The position numbers and the translations under genes are program-made. A stretch of DNA of 33,329 nucleotides from Acidobacteriota bacterium (GTDB lineage Bacteria > Acidobacteriota > Thermoanaerobaculia > Multivoradales > J023), in contig RFGL01000258.1 in the NCBI GenBank assembly GCA_003697015.1, positions 1 to 33,329 of the forward strand, written 5' to 3'. The notes under the pieces were generated by a model, which searched no databases, was not told the origin of the DNA, and saw only the letters and a program-made list of their open reading frames with translations. This document shows, one piece after another, positions 2,323-33,163 of the stretch; within the stretch, counting starts at the first letter, position 1, and each line of letters starts with the position of its first letter.

Positions 2323-3354
2323 ATGACCATCGAGCTCCCCATCGACGCCATCCTCGCCACGGCGCCGGCGCCGCCGCGGCGCGGCGCGGTGATCGGTCGC
2401 TCGCGCCAGGCGCGACCGATCTACGGCTACGTCTTCGGCCGCGGGCCGCTCCAGGTCAGCCTGATCGGCGGCTGCCACGCCGACGAGCCGGTCGGGCCGG
2501 CGATGCTCGAGGGGCTGATCACCTGGCTCGCCGGCAGCGGCAGGGATCACCCCCTGCTCGAGCGCGCCACCCTCCGCCTGGTGCCCCACGTCAATCCCGA
2601 CGGGGCGGCGGCCAACGCCCGGTGGAGCGAGCGCACGGTCGAGCTCGAGGACGGCGGCCGGGGATACGAGCTGGCGAGCTACCTGCGCCACGCGGTGCGG
2701 GAGCCGCCCGGCGACGACGTCGAGTTCGGCTTTCCGCGCTCCCCCGAAGACCGCGGCGCGCGGCCGGAGAACCTGGCGGTGGCCGCCTTCCTGCGCCCCG
2801 CCGCCCCCTTCGCCCTCCACGCCAGCTTCCACGGCATGGCCTTCGCCGCCGGGCCGTGGTTCCTGCTCGAGCGCGGCTGGGCCGAGCGCACCGCCGGCAT
2901 GCGGCAGCGCCTGCGCGCCCGCGTCCGCGCTCTCGGCTACCGTCTCCACGACGTCGACCGCGGCGGCGAGAAGGGCTTCCACCGCATCGACGAAGGCTTC
3001 ACCAGCCGTCCCGACTCGCGCGCCATGGCGGCCTACTTCGACCAGCGGGGGGATCCCTCGACGGCGCGCCTCTTCCGCCCCAGCTCGATGGAATTCGTCC
3101 GCTCCCTGGGCGGCGATCCCCTCACCCTGGTCTCCGAGATGCCCCTCTTCCTGCTCCCCGCCTCCCTCTACCGCCCGGGCGAAATCCGGCCGCCGGCGAT
3201 CGCCGAGCTCACCGCCCTGGCCCGGGCCGGCGACGACGACCGCCTGCGCCGGCAGGCCGCCGAGCTCGGCGTCCGCCCGATGCCGATCGCCGACCAGATG
3301 CGCCTGCAACTGGCCTACCTCGACGAGGCGCTGCGCCTCGTCGGGCGGACCTGA
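2323..3354 (+). CDS. M14 family zinc carboxypeptidase
   Basis: 'GGCHADEPVGPAMLEGLITWL' (HxxE zinc site) and 'LRLVPHVNPDGAAANARWS' typical of M14 peptidases. Confidence 0.85.
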   Translation: MTIELPIDAILATAPAPPRRGAVIGRSRQARPIYGYVFGRGPLQVSLIGGCHADEPVGPAMLEGLITWLAGSGRDHPLLERATLRLVPHVNPDGAAANARWSERTVELEDGGRGYELASYLRHAVREPPGDDVEFGFPRSPEDRGARPENLAVAAFLRPAAPFALHASFHGMAFAAGPWFLLERGWAERTAGMRQRLRARVRALGYRLHDVDRGGEKGFHRIDEGFTSRPDSRAMAAYFDQRGDPSTARLFRPSSMEFVRSLGGDPLTLVSEMPLFLLPASLYRPGEIRPPAIAELTALARAGDDDRLRRQAAELGVRPMPIADQMRLQLAYLDEALRLVGRT

Positions 3355-3390: not shown

Positions 3391-3449
3391 ATTCAGGTGC
3401 CAGGGTATTCGCCGGCATTCAGGTGCCAGGGTATTCGCAAATCGTTTAT
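3391..3449 (-). repeat. Two tandem copies of a dispersed GGTGCC-type intergenic repeat
   Basis: Plus strand 'attcaggtgccagggtattcgc' occurs twice, about 27 bp apart (3391-3412 and 3418-3439), followed by the 'GCAAATcgtttATTTGC' hairpin. The reverse complement 'gatttgcgaataccctggcacctga' resembles copies at 21871 and 22926. Confidence 0.75.
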
Positions 3450-3601: not shown

Positions 3602-4303
3602 CTACGCCGCCAGCAACGGATGCTCGCGCGCGGCGCGCTCGAGGTCGGGGTAGACCCAGTCGGCGCCGGCGCGGGCCAGGGCGCCGGGGGTGGCGAAGCC
3701 GGTGGCGACGGCGAGGCTGGGGATGCCGGCGGCGCGGGCGCAGTCGACGTCGCGGTGGCTGTCGCCGATGATCAGGGCGTCGGCGGGGGCGAAGCGGCGG
3801 CCGGTGGTGGCGGCGGCGCGATCGAGAGCGACCGGTGCCAGCTGGCGGCGGTCGACGCCGTCGTCGCCGAAGGCACCGAAGGGGAAGAAGCGGTCGAGGT
3901 CGAATCGGCCGAGCTTGACCTGGGCGGTGGCCTGCCAGTTGCCGGTCAGGAGGCCGATGGCGACGTCGTCGCGCTCGGCCAGGCGTTCGAGCAGCGGCAC
4001 GACGCCGGGCAAGAGCTCCATCCTGTCGCGCTCGAGGCCGGCGGCGAGACGCCGGCGGTAGGCCTCGCGCATCTCCGGCAGGCGGGCGAGGATGGCGCCG
4101 TCGTCGAGACCGAGGGGGCGCACCAGCTCGAGCACGATCTGCGGGTCGGTCTTGCCGGCGAAGCGGAAGCCGTCGACCGGCGCGTGACCGCCGAAGACCT
4201 CGGTCAGCGCCCCGGTGAAGAGATCGCGCACCTGCACGCCGCAGCGCAGCAGGGTGCCGTCGACGTCGAAGAGGATGAGCTTCACGACCGCCGACTCTAC
4301 CAC
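3602..4303 (-). CDS. HAD-family hydrolase (phosphoglycolate phosphatase-like)
   Basis: 'VKLILFDVDGTLLRCG' (DxDGT), 'GLLTGNW', 'LIIGDSHRDVDCARAAGIPSLAVATGF'. Real start may be GTG near 4285. Confidence 0.85.
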   Translation of the reverse strand: MVESAVVKLILFDVDGTLLRCGVQVRDLFTGALTEVFGGHAPVDGFRFAGKTDPQIVLELVRPLGLDDGAILARLPEMREAYRRRLAAGLERDRMELLPGVVPLLERLAERDDVAIGLLTGNWQATAQVKLGRFDLDRFFPFGAFGDDGVDRRQLAPVALDRAAATTGRRFAPADALIIGDSHRDVDCARAAGIPSLAVATGFATPGALARAGADWVYPDLERAAREHPLLAA

Positions 4304-18107: not shown

Positions 18108-19900
18108 GCCGCCGTCGTCCCCTCCTCTTGCCGGCGCTCTTCGCCGCCCTTCTCGCCGGTTGCGGCCGCGGCGTGATCGACGACGCCTGGCGCCGGCTCG
18201 ATTTGTGGGAGCTTCCCGGCGGCGTCTTCTCCCCCGTCGCCGAACGACCCCTGCCGCTGCGCGACGTGCTCCGGACCCTGCAGGACCGCTCCCTGCGGGT
18301 GCTCAACCCGCAGCCGGGAGAACGCCTCGCCTGGCGCCTCGAGCTGCTGGCGGCGCCTCGTTTCGAGGCCCGCCCGATCGCCGAGGGCGGACCTTGTGCC
18401 TTCACCGTCACCCTGCGCGACGCCGAAGGCGACGATCACCTGCTGCTGCACCACGTCGGACGGCCGTCGGGCATCAACCCGCCGCCGGCGATCACCGCCG
18501 ACCTGTCGCCCTTCGCCGGCCAGCGGGTGATGCTGCTGCTTGCCACCGCCGACGCCGCCGGCCCCGGCGAGGAGCCGTGCCGCCGGGCGAGCTGGGGCAG
18601 CCCGGTGGTGGTCCACCGCGGCCCCGCCCCCGGTCCGCGCCGCCGCGGACCGCCGAACGTCATCCTGATCGGCGCCGACACCCTGCGCGCCGACGTCCTC
18701 GGTGCCTACGGCCGGCAGCCGAGCATCACGCCGGCGATCGACCGCCTCGCCGCCGTCAGCGACGTGTGGCTCGAAGCCTTCGCCAGCAGCAACAACACCA
18801 ACCCCAGCTTCATCTCCCTGATGACCGGCCTCTACGCCAAGAACCACGGCGTCTACGACCTCGAATCCCGCCTGCCCGACTCCTACCTCACCCTCGCCGA
18901 GCTGCTCAGGGGGGCGGGCTACCACACCTGGGGCATCACCGCCGCCACCCACCTCGGCTACAGCTCCGGCCTGCGCCAGGGTTTCGATCTCTTCGTCGGC
19001 CCGAACGGCCAGTTCTTCGGCGAAACCGTGGTCGACGTCGCCCTCGGCTGGCTCGAACGGCCGCTCGCGCGGCCATTCTTCCTCTGGCTGCACTTCTTCG
19101 ATCCCCACGTGCCCCACAACCCACCCTCCCCCTACCACCTCGGCCGCCGGCCGGCCGATCGCTTCGGCCTCGGCCCGGTCGCCGAATGGACGCCGTTTCG
19201 CCAGCTCGGCGGACGCGACTTCGACCCGCGGGTCAAGCTGCCGATCCAGGGCCACGCCGACCTCTACCTCGGCGAGGTCGCCTACCTCGACCGGCAGATC
19301 GACCGCCTGCTCGACTTCCTGGAGAGCCGCCGCCTGCTCGACAACACCATCCTCGTCTTCGTCGCCGACCACGGCGAGACCCTGGGGGAACGCGGCAACT
19401 ACTTCGACCACGCCGGCCTCTTCGACATCACCACCCACGTCCCCCTCTTCATCCACTGGCCCGGGCAGCGCGAGGGGCGACGCCGGCCGGGGCTGGTACA
19501 GCACCTCGATCTCTTCCCCACCCTGCTGCGCCACGCCGGCGTCAAGCCGCCCCCCCAGGACGGCCGGGAGCTGCCCGCCGCGGCCGCAGGCGAGCGCGGC
19601 CGGCGCCTGGTCTTCGCCCAGCATGCCCTGGACAACGGCGCCATGGTGCGCGGCCCACGCTTCAAGTACGCGGTCAATCGCGAATCGCCGCTCTACCCCC
19701 AGGGCGCCTACCTCTTCGACCTCGTCGCCGACCCCGGCGAGCGACGCAACCTCGCCGGCAGCGGCCACCCGAAAGAAGCCGAGCTGGCGGCGATCCTCGA
19801 GCGCTGGCTGGCCGATCGCCAGCCCGGCGACGCGCCCCTGCCGGTGGAGCTCAGCGACGAGGAGCGCCGGCGACTCGAAGCTCTGGGTTACGGCCGCTGA
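18104..19900 (+). CDS. Sulfatase / alkaline-phosphatase-superfamily lipoprotein
   Basis: TTG start overlapping the MoaX stop (TTGA). Lipobox 'LLAGCG'; 'NVILIGADTLRADVLGAYG', 'ASSNNTNPSFISLMTGLYAKNHGV', 'LVFVADHGETLGERG'. Confidence 0.85.
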   Translation: MSRRRPLLLPALFAALLAGCGRGVIDDAWRRLDLWELPGGVFSPVAERPLPLRDVLRTLQDRSLRVLNPQPGERLAWRLELLAAPRFEARPIAEGGPCAFTVTLRDAEGDDHLLLHHVGRPSGINPPPAITADLSPFAGQRVMLLLATADAAGPGEEPCRRASWGSPVVVHRGPAPGPRRRGPPNVILIGADTLRADVLGAYGRQPSITPAIDRLAAVSDVWLEAFASSNNTNPSFISLMTGLYAKNHGVYDLESRLPDSYLTLAELLRGAGYHTWGITAATHLGYSSGLRQGFDLFVGPNGQFFGETVVDVALGWLERPLARPFFLWLHFFDPHVPHNPPSPYHLGRRPADRFGLGPVAEWTPFRQLGGRDFDPRVKLPIQGHADLYLGEVAYLDRQIDRLLDFLESRRLLDNTILVFVADHGETLGERGNYFDHAGLFDITTHVPLFIHWPGQREGRRRPGLVQHLDLFPTLLRHAGVKPPPQDGRELPAAAAGERGRRLVFAQHALDNGAMVRGPRFKYAVNRESPLYPQGAYLFDLVADPGERRNLAGSGHPKEAELAAILERWLADRQPGDAPLPVELSDEERRRLEALGYGR

Positions 19901-21243
19901 TCCCCCTGCTGGCGGATCCACGCCGCGAAGCCGGCGTCGAGTTGACGCCACGAGCGGCCGAGCTTGCGGCGCAGGCGCTCGGCGGTGGGCGCCTCGCCGG
20001 CGGCGACGTCGTCGAGGAAGGCGCGCAGGGCGGCGGCCTGGCGGCGCTCTTCGCCGTCGAGGAGATAGCGCAGGAAGGCGCCGCTCACGGCGTAGTGAAG
20101 GGATTGGCGGTCGCTGCGCATGAATCCCCCCCAGTCGAGAGCGAGCACCGTCTCGACGGAGGGCAGGCGACGGCGGCCGAGGGCCAGCTGCAGCTCGTGC
20201 AGGGCGGCCAGCCCGCCGAGATAGGTGATGCGCTGGCCGACCTCGAAACGACGGCCGCCGATCTCCCGCGGGTAGAGCCGGCCGCCGGCGTCGATGCGCG
20301 ACGAGGCCAGGCACTCGGCCACCCCCTCCTCCAACCACGGGGGCAGCGCCGGCCCCAGGGCGCGGCGGTTGATCAGGTGGGTGAGCTCGTGGACGAAGGT
20401 GGCGGTGACCTGGGTCAGATCGCCGCCGGCGGCGAGGGCGGCGATGCCCCGACCGCTGTGCCCGGCGGCGCGCAGGCCGACGAGCTCCTCGGTCTGCTCC
20501 TGGAAGCGGCGGTAGGCGGCCGCGGTGCGGAAGAGCACCACCGCCGCCCGCGGCTCCCCCTGGGGCTTGCGACCGAAGCGGATGGCGTAGATCGCGTCGA
20601 GCCTCCGCGCCAGGGCCTCGAGGCGCCGCAGGAGCAGATCATTGTCGACGTCGGTGTAGAGGGCGTAGGGACCGAGGGCGACCCGGCGCTCGCCGTCCAG
20701 AAGGGCGCGGGCGGCGGCCAGGCGCTCGGGGTCGGGCGGCTGGGGCTCGAGAGGCCGCGGCGGCTCGGGGTCGCGGCCCATCGGCGGCTCGCCGCGCGCC
20801 AGCCGCTCGCTGTAGACCCACCCCCGGCGGCCGCGGAAGCGCACCCGCGCCCAGCCCCCGCGCACCTCGCTGGCGTCGAGGTTGGCGTAGGCGTCGAAGC
20901 GCGCCAGCACCTTCGCATCCTCCGCCGGCCTGGCCCGCAGCTCCATGCCGGGCTCGACCCACACCAGGTCGCGGTCGGTGAGGGGAGGCGGCTCGACGAC
21001 GACGACCTCGGGCGCCTCCTCCGCCGGCGGCTCCCCCTCCTCCGCCGGCGGAGGAGGCGGCAGATAGTAGGCCTGGAAACGCGCCACCCAGGGTCCGACG
21101 TAGGGCCAGGTCGCCGCCCGGTGGACCAGCGGGTGGTCGGGGAAATTCGTCGCCCAGGTGGCGACCAGGACCAGCGCCAGGAAGAGCGCCCCCAGCAGCT
21201 TGATCAGCCCGTCGCCCAGCCGCCGTCGCCTTCTCATCCTCAT
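19888..21243 (-). CDS. SH3-domain gluzincin (peptidase MA-like) membrane-anchored protein
   Basis: N-terminal TM, Pro/Glu-rich linker, SH3-like 'VWVEPGMELRARPAEDAKVLARFDAYANLDASEVRGGWARVRFRGRRGWVYSERL', zinc motif 'FVHELTHLINRRALGPALPPWLEEGVAECLA'. 13-nt convergent overlap with the sulfatase gene. Confidence 0.75.
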   Translation of the reverse strand: MRMRRRRRLGDGLIKLLGALFLALVLVATWATNFPDHPLVHRAATWPYVGPWVARFQAYYLPPPPPAEEGEPPAEEAPEVVVVEPPPLTDRDLVWVEPGMELRARPAEDAKVLARFDAYANLDASEVRGGWARVRFRGRRGWVYSERLARGEPPMGRDPEPPRPLEPQPPDPERLAAARALLDGERRVALGPYALYTDVDNDLLLRRLEALARRLDAIYAIRFGRKPQGEPRAAVVLFRTAAAYRRFQEQTEELVGLRAAGHSGRGIAALAAGGDLTQVTATFVHELTHLINRRALGPALPPWLEEGVAECLASSRIDAGGRLYPREIGGRRFEVGQRITYLGGLAALHELQLALGRRRLPSVETVLALDWGGFMRSDRQSLHYAVSGAFLRYLLDGEERRQAAALRAFLDDVAAGEAPTAERLRRKLGRSWRQLDAGFAAWIRQQGDQRP

Positions 21244-21303
21244 GCCTCCGGGCTTGCAATTCTCGCATCCTGCCGTAGAGTGTGCCCACGATGAGCTTCG
21301 AGC
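21202..21303. repeat. 102-bp direct repeat, copy 1
   Basis: 'gatcagcccgtcgcccagccgccgtcgccttctcatcctcatgcctccgggcttgcaattctcgcatcctgccgtagagtgtgcccacgatgagcttcgagc'; 99/102 identical to 21976-22077. Confidence 0.97.
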
Positions 21304-21338
21304 GACTCATCCCTGGAGACCGACCTCCGCCGGTCACG

Positions 21339-21575
21339 TCAAAGCGATGCCAGGACGTCTCGACGGCTGACGCCCTTATGGCGAGCGACGGCGCGCAAGA
21401 TGGCGTTCAAGGTACCGATGCGCAATGTGGGATGCAGAGGTATCGCGATGCGATGATGGGAAGGATCGTCTGTTTCCCCGGCGTGACTACCGACCTGATT
21501 CGCTCGACGATATCCCCAAGACTGACAGAGCGCCTTGACCAAGGTGGTACCGCCGAGATCGCGCGGTAGCTTCAT
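21339..21575 (-). CDS. hicA: HicA-like mRNA interferase toxin
   Basis: In ORF 21339..21725 from Met51: 'MKLPRDLGGTTLVKALCQSWGYRRANQVGSHAGETDDPSHHRIAIPLHPTLRIGTLNAILRAVARHKGVSRRDVLASL'. HicA hallmarks: GSH and 'GTLxxIL'. ATGA overlap with hicB. Confidence 0.82.
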   Translation of the reverse strand: MKLPRDLGGTTLVKALCQSWGYRRANQVGSHAGETDDPSHHRIAIPLHPTLRIGTLNAILRAVARHKGVSRRDVLASL

Positions 21576-21781
21576 GCGACGGCGACGACCTCGTCGCGGA
21601 CCAGGTGCAGGCGAATCGCCGGCGGGGGGGTGCGATCGAAGTAGAAGGCCTGGACCGCCTCCTTGACGTTCTGGCGTAGCTCTTCCCAGCTGTCCGCCTG
21701 GGTGACGATGCTCTCGCCGAGGCATTCGGCAACGAAGCCGCCGTCCGCTTCCTGGGTGACTTCAAAAACAAGCTCGTTCAT
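21572..21781 (-). CDS. hicB: HicB-like antitoxin (short form)
   Basis: 'MNELVFEVTQEADGGFVAECLGESIVTQADSWEELRQNVKEAVQAFYFDRTPPPAIRLHLVRDEVVAVA', HicB RNase-H-like fold pattern. SD-like 'GGAGG' just upstream. Confidence 0.83.
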   Translation of the reverse strand: MNELVFEVTQEADGGFVAECLGESIVTQADSWEELRQNVKEAVQAFYFDRTPPPAIRLHLVRDEVVAVA

Positions 21782-21789
21782 GATCCTCC

Positions 21790-21811
21790 AGTATAGCCCG
21801 TCGCTCGACGG
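21790..21811 (-). promoter_or_regulatory. Putative hicBA promoter/operator
   Basis: Minus strand TATACT (21795-21790) next to the palindrome CCGTCG-CT-CGACGG (21798-21811). Confidence 0.4.
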
Positions 21812-21844
21812 CGGGGGCATCCGCGCCCGGTCGATTCCGGCTCA

Positions 21845-21898
21845 GGTCTTCGTAAGCCGTTGACCGAAAAAGATTTGTGAAGACCCTGGCACCTGACG
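21845..21898 (+). repeat. Dispersed GGCACC-type intergenic element with hairpin
   Basis: GGTCTTCgtAA (21845-21855) / TTgtGAAGACC (21875-21885) imperfect inverted repeat leading into 'CCTGGCACCTGAC'. Resembles copies at 3391-3449 (reverse strand) and 22921-22951. Confidence 0.65.
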
Positions 21899-21975
21899 TG
21901 GCCGCACCTGGCGCGGCCCCTGACGCGGGCGCCGGCAGATCCGACCCACGAAGGCAGGGGGACCCGGCGCGGGCA

Positions 21976-22077
21976 GATCAGCCCGTCGCCCAGCCGCCGT
22001 CGTCTTCTCATCCTCGTGCCTCCGGGCTTGCAATTCTCCCATCCTGCCGTAGAGTGTGCCCACGATGAGCTTCGAGC
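21976..22077. repeat. 102-bp direct repeat, copy 2
   Basis: Same 102 bp as 21202-21303 with 3 mismatches; carries the ATG (22065) of the moxR gene. Confidence 0.97.
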
Positions 22078-22904
22078 AATTCACCGGCACCGACACCTAC
22101 CTGGCCTCCGCCGAGCTGCGCGACGCGGTCAACGTCGCCATCGCCCTCGAGCGGCCGCTCCTGATCCGCGGCGAGCCCGGCACCGGCAAGACCATGCTCG
22201 CCGAGGCGATCGCCGAGGATCTGGGGCTCGAGCTGCTGACCTGGAACGTCAAGTCGACCAGCAAGGCCCGCGACGGGCTCTACGTCTACGACACGGTCCA
22301 GCGCTTGAACGACGCCCGCTTCGGCGACCGCGACGTCTCCGACATCCGGCGCTACATCAAGCTCGGCCCTCTCGGCCGGGCCTTCAGCGAGCCGCGCCGG
22401 GTCGTGCTCCTGATCGACGAGATCGACAAGGCGGACATGGAGTTCCCCAACGACCTGCTGCACGAGCTCGACCGCATGAGCTTCATGATCGACGAGACCG
22501 GCGAGACCGTCACCGCCCGCAAACGGCCGATCGTCGTCATCACCTCGAACAACGAAAAAGAGCTGCCCGACGCCTTCCTGCGGCGCTGCGTCTTCCACTA
22601 CATCGCCTTCCCCGACGAAGAGCTGATGGCCGACATCGTCCGCGTCCACCACCCGGATCTCGAGGCCGCCCTGCTGCGTCAGGTGCTGATCGCCTTCTAC
22701 TGGCTGCGCGATCAACCCGAGGTGCGCAAACGCCCCTCGACCAGCGAGCTCATCGACTGGATCGCCGCCCTGCGCCAGGCCGGCATCGCCGCCGAGCGCA
22801 TGGAGGAAGAGCTGCCCTTCCTCGGCGTCCTGCTCAAACGCGAGCAGGACTTCGAAGCCGTCAACCAGCGCCAAGTCCGGCGCCGCGTCGGACGGGTGAA
22901 CTAG
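22065..22904 (+). CDS. MoxR-family AAA+ ATPase
   Basis: 'RPLLIRGEPGTGKTMLAEAIAEDLG' Walker A, 'RRVVLLIDEIDKADMEFPNDLLHELDRMSF' Walker B, 'PIVVITSNNEKELPDAFLRRCVFHYIAFP'. Confidence 0.9.
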   Translation: MSFEQFTGTDTYLASAELRDAVNVAIALERPLLIRGEPGTGKTMLAEAIAEDLGLELLTWNVKSTSKARDGLYVYDTVQRLNDARFGDRDVSDIRRYIKLGPLGRAFSEPRRVVLLIDEIDKADMEFPNDLLHELDRMSFMIDETGETVTARKRPIVVITSNNEKELPDAFLRRCVFHYIAFPDEELMADIVRVHHPDLEAALLRQVLIAFYWLRDQPEVRKRPSTSELIDWIAALRQAGIAAERMEEELPFLGVLLKREQDFEAVNQRQVRRRVGRVN

Positions 22905-23628: not shown

Positions 23629-24201
23629 GTGAGCCCAGACGAAAGTGAAGTGACCGCCCTCCTCGAGCGCTGGAGCGAGGGCGACGCGGACGCCTTGGGC
23701 GAGCTCATCCCCGTGGTCTTCGACCAGGTCCGCGACCTCGCCCACCGCCACCTGGCGCGCGAGGCCCCCGGCCACACCTGGCAGACCACCGAGCTGGTGC
23801 ACGAGGTCTACCTGCGGCTGGTGGATCGGCGGCAGGTTCAGTGGCAGAACCGGGCGCAGTTCTTCGGCTACCTGGCCGAGGTGATGCGCCGCCTGCTGAT
23901 CGACCACGCCCGGCGGCGCCTGCGCGAGAAGCGCGGCAGCGGCGTCCGACCGCTGCCCCTCGACGACGTCTTCGGTCTGGCGGAGAAACGGCCGCCGGAG
24001 CTCCTCGCCCTCGACGACGCCCTCGCCGGCCTGGCGCACATCGACCCCCGCCAGAGCCGCATCGTCGAGCTGCGCTTCTTCATCGGCCTCACCCTGCAGC
24101 AGATCGCCGACGTCCTCGGCGTCTCCCTGGCGACGGTCAACCGCGACTGGCGCAGCGCCCGCATGTGGCTCCTGCGCCAGCTCGCCGCCGGCTCCGATTG
24201 A
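23629..24201 (+). CDS. ECF-type RNA polymerase sigma factor (TIGR02999-like, kinase-linked)
   Basis: GTG start at 23629. 'EVTALLERWSEGDADALGELIPVVFDQVRDLAHRHLARE...TTELVHEVYLRLVD...LPRQ-like ...RQSRIVELRFFIGLTLQQIADVLGVSLATVNRDWRSARMWLLRQL' (regions 2 and 4). Confidence 0.9.
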   Translation: MSPDESEVTALLERWSEGDADALGELIPVVFDQVRDLAHRHLAREAPGHTWQTTELVHEVYLRLVDRRQVQWQNRAQFFGYLAEVMRRLLIDHARRRLREKRGSGVRPLPLDDVFGLAEKRPPELLALDDALAGLAHIDPRQSRIVELRFFIGLTLQQIADVLGVSLATVNRDWRSARMWLLRQLAAGSD

Positions 24202-24248
24202 GACGAATGATGGGCGGACGGCGCGTTTTCTGATGAGGTGATGGGGAG

Positions 24249-26618
<2,370 letters not shown>

Positions 26619-29739: not shown

Positions 29740-30300
29740 ATGCGCGAAACCGACGTGACCGAGCTGCTCCACGCCTGGCGTGCCGGCGACCAGGCCGCCC
29801 TCACCCGCCTTCTGCCGCGGGTCTACGAAGACCTGCGCCGGCTCGCCGGCCGCCACCTGGCGCGGGAGCGCGCCGGCCACACCCTGCAGCCGACGGCGCT
29901 GGTCAACGAGTGCTATCTGGAGCTCCTCGACCAGAACCGCGTCGACTGGCAGGACCGCGCCCACTTCCTCGCCATCGCCGCCCGCACCATGCGCCGCATC
30001 CTGATCGCCCACGCGCGAAAACGCCGGGCGATGAAACGCGGCGGGGGCGTTTTGCCCCTAACCCTGGACGAGGCCCTTGAGGTGGCGGGTGGACGCCGCC
30101 TCGACCTGCTCGCTCTCGACGACGCCCTGCGCGCCCTCGAAGCGTTGTCGCCACGCCAGAGCCAGGTCGTCGAGCTGCGCTTCTTCGGCGGCCTGACCAT
30201 CCCCGAGACCGCCGCCGTGCTCGGCGTCTCCCCGGCGACGGTCAAGAACGACTGGCAGATGGCCCGGGCCTGGCTCTTCAACGAGCTGCGAAAGGGGTGA
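29740..30300 (+). CDS. ECF-type RNA polymerase sigma factor (second paralogue)
   Basis: 'DVTELLHAWRAGDQAALTRLLPRVYEDLRRLAGRHLARERAGHTLQPTALVNECYLELLDQ...RQSQVVELRFFGGLTIPETAAVLGVSPATVKNDWQMARAWLFNEL'. Confidence 0.92.
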   Translation: MRETDVTELLHAWRAGDQAALTRLLPRVYEDLRRLAGRHLARERAGHTLQPTALVNECYLELLDQNRVDWQDRAHFLAIAARTMRRILIAHARKRRAMKRGGGVLPLTLDEALEVAGGRRLDLLALDDALRALEALSPRQSQVVELRFFGGLTIPETAAVLGVSPATVKNDWQMARAWLFNELRKG

Positions 30301-30304
30301 CGAC

Positions 30305-33163
<2,859 letters not shown>

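Follow-up and report, generated by a model that had tools for sequence, protein, structure and literature searches.

Toxin-antitoxin cassettes between long direct repeats of duplicated target DNA in an acidobacterial genome

A hicBA toxin-antitoxin (TA) cassette lies inside the divergent promoter of a peptidase-like gene and a moxR gene, bracketed by two copies of that promoter region. The same design is found at further loci of this Acidobacteriota genome, and the footprint, i.e., TA cassettes of unrelated families between long direct repeats of duplicated, mutually unrelated target DNA, is well supported. The window, by which we mean the whole stretch of 33,329 nucleotides that was analysed, is contig C420 of a 5.34-Mb bin consisting of 500 contigs.

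The original prediction described the repeats as 102 bp long with three mismatches, and a gapless alignment of the two copies bears this out over 102 bp with 3 mismatches at a spacing of 774, see Table 1. A repeat finder extends the copies to 108 bp at 95%. It had also been proposed that copy 1 serves the peptidase and copy 2 moxR, the other halves being vestigial, and the positions of the start codons agree with this. Copy 1 contains the working peptidase ATG at 21243 (minus strand) next to the vestigial moxR start, while copy 2 contains the working moxR ATG at 22065 and a vestigial peptidase start in which the first ATG is lost. As the promoter is present in two copies, both neighbours keep their start region. 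The coding content of the 672-bp insert is hicB and hicA only, with neither a transposase nor an integrase. The hicBA DNA is single-copy in its own genome, and only a dispersed intergenic repeat within the insert is found again. An Rfam search of the locus gave nothing relevant, and folding of the 102-bp target gave no structure that beats shuffled sequence. Elsewhere in the window, at 24046-25091 and 30151-31165, there are diverged direct repeats of several hundred bases (76-85%, ~6.07 kb apart), where a gene pair encoding an RNA polymerase sigma-like factor and a repeat-bearing protein kinase looks duplicated.

Table 1. Features of the hicBA locus in the window
Feature	Position	Strand	Remarks
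Left neighbour, SH3-domain peptidase-like gene	19888..21243	-	PF06347, E=1.3e-6
Copy 1 of duplicated target	21202..21303		peptidase start, divergent intergenic region, vestigial moxR start at 21291
Inserted segment with hicBA, 672 bp	21304..21975		G+C 64% vs 71% for the contig
hicA, predicted toxin gene, 78 aa	21339..21575	-	PF07927, E=5.1e-5; GSH motif kept
hicB-like putative antitoxin gene, 69 aa	21572..21781	-	47-72% identity to hicA-adjacent small genes elsewhere
Dispersed intergenic repeat copy within insert	21851..21898	+	other copies in this genome
Copy 2 of duplicated target	21976..22077		vestigial peptidase start, intergenic region, moxR start
Right neighbour, MoxR-type AAA ATPase gene	22065..22904	+	AAA / AAA_5

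Both hic genes are intact and overlap by 4 bases on the minus strand. The match of HicA to its Pfam family is slightly under the curated cutoff of that family (27 bits). The GSH motif, with the catalytic histidine, is conserved in the alignment with homologues, and 26 further genomes of the class have hicA homologues. HicB matches no Pfam or NCBIfam family; its resemblance is to the small partners of hicA in other genomes (Table 1).

The divergent promoter occurs insert-free in a relative, and the repeat is therefore duplicated target DNA. In JALCBJ010000063.1 (G005, same family, labelled Thermoanaerobaculia), the start codons of the divergent peptidase and moxR genes are ~60 bp apart, and there is no insert. 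An empty peptidase-moxR site in relatives is what the original prediction had proposed to look for, and finding it supports the claim that hicBA entered a compact divergent promoter without a transposase and that a very long stretch of the target was duplicated in the process. This is the sole empty site for the window locus, it belongs to a family-level relative, and its peptidase is only 34% identical. Orthologues of moxR are 81-83% identical in five other genomes of the family, and no counterpart of the moxR region was found in G001, a genome of the same genus. In G006 (L056 1975-4998), other genes occupy ~3 kb between the peptidase gene and moxR, which may mean that this promoter region has received insertions repeatedly.

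A search for further cassettes with ~100-bp duplications had likewise been proposed, and it yielded a second hicBA at a tRNA-Sec gene as well as other TA families in the same genome. The second hicBA, both parts of which score above the Pfam cutoffs, is located on C330 behind tRNA-Sec (3000-3099). The 3' part of the tRNA (3034-3102) is duplicated on the far side of the cassette at 3710-3779, 70 bp at 93%. As to an empty site, the tRNA-Sec was not found beside the downstream gene in relatives. On C311, a POT transporter gene and dinB converge, and a vapBC module (MazE/AbrB-type antitoxin and PIN toxin) is located between their ends. The duplicate measures 90 bp (93% identity), and its length rises to ~111 bp once the 12 bp deleted from the vestigial copy are included. 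The vestigial dinB end was detected by protein search. The POT/dinB pair is found without vapBC in four relatives, one of them of the same genus.

On C160, three repeats of ~110-130 bp are interleaved with two modules, PhdYefM+PIN and RHH+PIN. The three repeats include the dispersed intergenic repeat and have not been linked to a host gene. On C382 (L148 4730-6313), the genes of an HTH protein resembling HigA and of an HNH nuclease weakly similar to PtuB lie between 116-118 bp repeats that include the last codons (3' end) of pdxT. This pair is a candidate addiction or defence module, possibly an undescribed TA or defence pair. For the hicA gene on C334 no flanking repeat was found; its right flank is short because the gene is near the contig end.

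The copies in the window are 3% diverged, while those of the other cases are 7-12% diverged, so the event is "recent", as originally described, in a relative sense only. The 3-12% divergence between copies argues for separate events and for the long persistence of a structure that could be deleted. Clean excision of hicBA through recombination between the repeats, another part of the original prediction, is plausible, but such long-lasting, diverged repeats suggest that excision is rare or counter-selected.

The association between long repeats and TA genes seen in the window is more than chance. A scan covered 1.24 Mb of the 5.34-Mb bin in 109 stretches, in which C382 and C330 were included on other grounds. 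Direct repeats of at least 50 bp and at least 88% identity, 150-6000 bp apart, are very few in these 1.24 Mb and most of them bracket TA-type genes. Those with a gap above 150 bp are found in the window, C330, C311 and C382, in a cluster by a Y1 transposase gene on C254, and in two more places: C69 has a borderline pair (51 bp, 88.2%), and the contig end of C382 has an array. In a separate flank test, requiring a length of at least 60 bp and an identity of at least 85%, five of the 21 TA loci (HicA, PIN, ParE) are flanked by repeats, compared with none of 4000 random positions drawn from contigs that were chosen regardless of TA genes (Fisher p ~2e-12). With the window excluded, this becomes 4/20 (p ~4e-10). 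A looser score of flank similarity (>=24) was dropped, as 3.4% of random positions pass it, mostly through low-identity similarity.

Flank similarity is also present at hicA/PIN loci in other genomes of the class and order (L119, L120, L143, L129, L252, L324 and L329), with repeats from 35 bp to 1.1 kb. Those of L119 and L120, which resemble dispersed intergenic DNA, were left out of the count of target duplications. At L129 and L252, which are from two species of the order, hicBA/hicAB modules of two different types are each enclosed by tandem 1.1-kb gene copies (~83% identity) of the same gene family, and ~0.4-kb copies enclose hicBA/hicAB in a third genome of that order. Control loci with MoxR show no flank similarity (0/44). 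None of eight TA loci in E. coli K-12 has such repeats, i.e., the pattern is not universal among bacteria.

A comparison of six inserts revealed no common termini, no terminal inverted repeats above between-locus controls and no common segment. The inserts encode no recombinase, and no integrase gene is present in those of 0.6-0.7 kb. In the three contigs measured (the window, C330 and C311), the G+C content of the insert is 64-68% vs ~71% for the contig. Duplications of 70 to ~130 bp affect targets as different as a divergent promoter, a tRNA gene and the ends of genes. The differing targets, together with the lack of common ends and of a recombinase, argue against a transposon, against attachment sites with a common core and against integron cassettes. 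A composite or simple transposon was rejected, as there are no terminal inverted repeats above the controls and duplications of 70-130 bp are not of a short fixed length. A tRNA-targeted integrative element was also rejected, since the integrase gene is missing from the 0.6-0.7 kb inserts.

Insertion with long target duplication has been described for restriction-modification systems (Nobusato et al. 2000, Gene 259:99; Furuta et al. 2010, NAR 38:2428, both as cited in later work), which are also addiction modules. The target duplications there are long and variable, on the order of 100 bp, according to PMC3874152, PMC1643837 and PMC3031569. Our cassettes share with these systems an addictive gene pair, the absence of a transposase, a variable direct duplication of ~100 bp and a single-copy empty site in relatives. 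Thus, in its repeats, in its empty sites and in having no transposase, the footprint of the cassettes matches this mode of insertion. However, the restriction-modification insertions were first described in Helicobacter, while the cargo here is type II toxin-antitoxin modules of several families, and, unlike in those reports, many cases are found in one acidobacterial genome. A search of the open-access literature turned up no paper in which this concept is extended to TA modules.

The closest TA example is a MaOC1-linked ParDE-like pair in Microcystis aeruginosa PCC 7806, which is enclosed by direct repeats of 152 bp (PMC7935541). It resembles our cases in the long identical direct repeats around a TA pair, and it is conserved in a few strains, but the Microcystis repeats include an inverted repeat, and no origin from duplicated target DNA was traced for them.

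We suggest that the cassettes were probably captured without a transposase, with duplication of the target, and that the TA modules were kept because their loss between the repeats is penalised. Both the molecular capture step and the addiction filter are steps that we infer. In the window, a foreign-looking segment of ~0.67 kb would have been captured into the compact divergent promoter, either (a) through widely staggered nicks at a break, followed by fill-in and end joining, or (b) through a template switch into a TA donor and a return upstream of the departure point. Deletion between the direct repeats would then remove the antitoxin, and the longer-lived toxin would penalise the loss, while ordinary DNA inserted by the same route would be lost through reverse recombination. 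Deletion between short direct repeats can be RecA-independent (PMC5426353). Addiction by chromosomal TA modules is not to be assumed, as the chromosomal dinJ-yafQ and ccdO157 of E. coli failed to prevent deletions or to stabilise DNA in tests cited in PMC2654758. It also counts against our explanation that neither a donor nor a circle nor an excision product was seen, and that the HicB of the window is unusual, having no Pfam match.

More tentatively, bacterial chromosomes could be capturing small fragments of any kind all the time, without a transposase and with duplication of ~100 bp of target, with only the addictive modules, TA and restriction-modification, remaining visible. As the duplication makes the insertion reversible, ordinary cargo would then vanish without a trace. 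We regard this as possible rather than probable.

Another order of events would start from a tandem duplication of the target, after which a TA segment entered or replaced part of it and blocked collapse of the duplicate. The end product would be identical, and the hicBA/hicAB modules between tandem copies of 1.1 kb and ~0.4 kb in three other genomes of the order are what such a history would leave. However, the insert must then have hit the exact tandem junction in each of several cases, and the relatives showed none of these targets as tandem copies lacking an insert. We therefore consider this order of events rather unlikely.

It is very unlikely that small TA circles were integrated site-specifically by a trans-acting tyrosine integrase, with the repeats as attachment sites. 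The tRNA-Sec case does follow the classic arrangement, its insert being flanked by an intact tRNA and a 3' fragment, and like genomic islands at tRNA 3' ends it duplicates the 3' part of the tRNA. Unlike such islands, the C330 insert is ~0.6 kb and has no integrase, and the other targets, a divergent promoter and gene ends, are non-tRNA and share no common core with it or with each other. The duplicates range from 70 to ~130 bp, and the inserts are without a recombinase. Integron gene cassettes are similar to the C160 array in that small TA cassettes lie between repeats; however, the target-derived repeats here are host gene ends, a promoter or a tRNA, unlike integron attC sites.

The dispersed repeat (about CGTAAGTC...ACTTGCGAAGACCCTGGCACCTGACG) often occurs in short arrays and is also found in the window at 3393-3448, in L148, L152, L273 and L149, and in other places. 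A tandem-repeat reading of it was rejected, as this accounts for local arrays only. It occurs beside the TA modules on C160, C334, C413 and C382 more often than expected. The Y1 (REP-associated type) transposase gene at G000:C254:3660-4007 (L206) adjoins repeats of 89-137 bp from another sequence family. From the copy within the window insert, those in or beside the modules on C160, C334, C382 and C413, and the presence of a Y1 transposase on C254, it could be speculated that TA cassettes are mobilised or attracted by the dispersed repeat, one possibility being a REP-like element on which this transposase acts. We find this highly improbable: the C311 and C330 cassettes have no copy, so the repeat is not required, the tested copies fold no better than shuffled sequence, and the repeats by the Y1 gene are a different sequence. 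Y1 transposition, moreover, is not known to produce target duplications. Finally, the metagenome bin is fragmented into 500 contigs and short-read assembly can go wrong at repeats this long, but an assembly artefact is extremely unlikely, because the copies differ, their outer edges enter unique sequence, the neighbouring genes are intact and the design recurs on several contigs and in other genomes.

How solitary chromosomal TA modules move between genomes has long been asked, since they carry no mobility genes. One genome in which several TA families lie between long repeats, mostly of duplicated target DNA, provides a concrete footprint. This footprint links TA cassettes to the insertion mode of restriction-modification systems, and the idea of a survivor filter becomes directly testable. 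If, on the more tentative reading, fragments of all kinds are captured and only addictive cargo survives, solitary chromosomal TA cassettes would be the fossils of an otherwise invisible flux of insertions.
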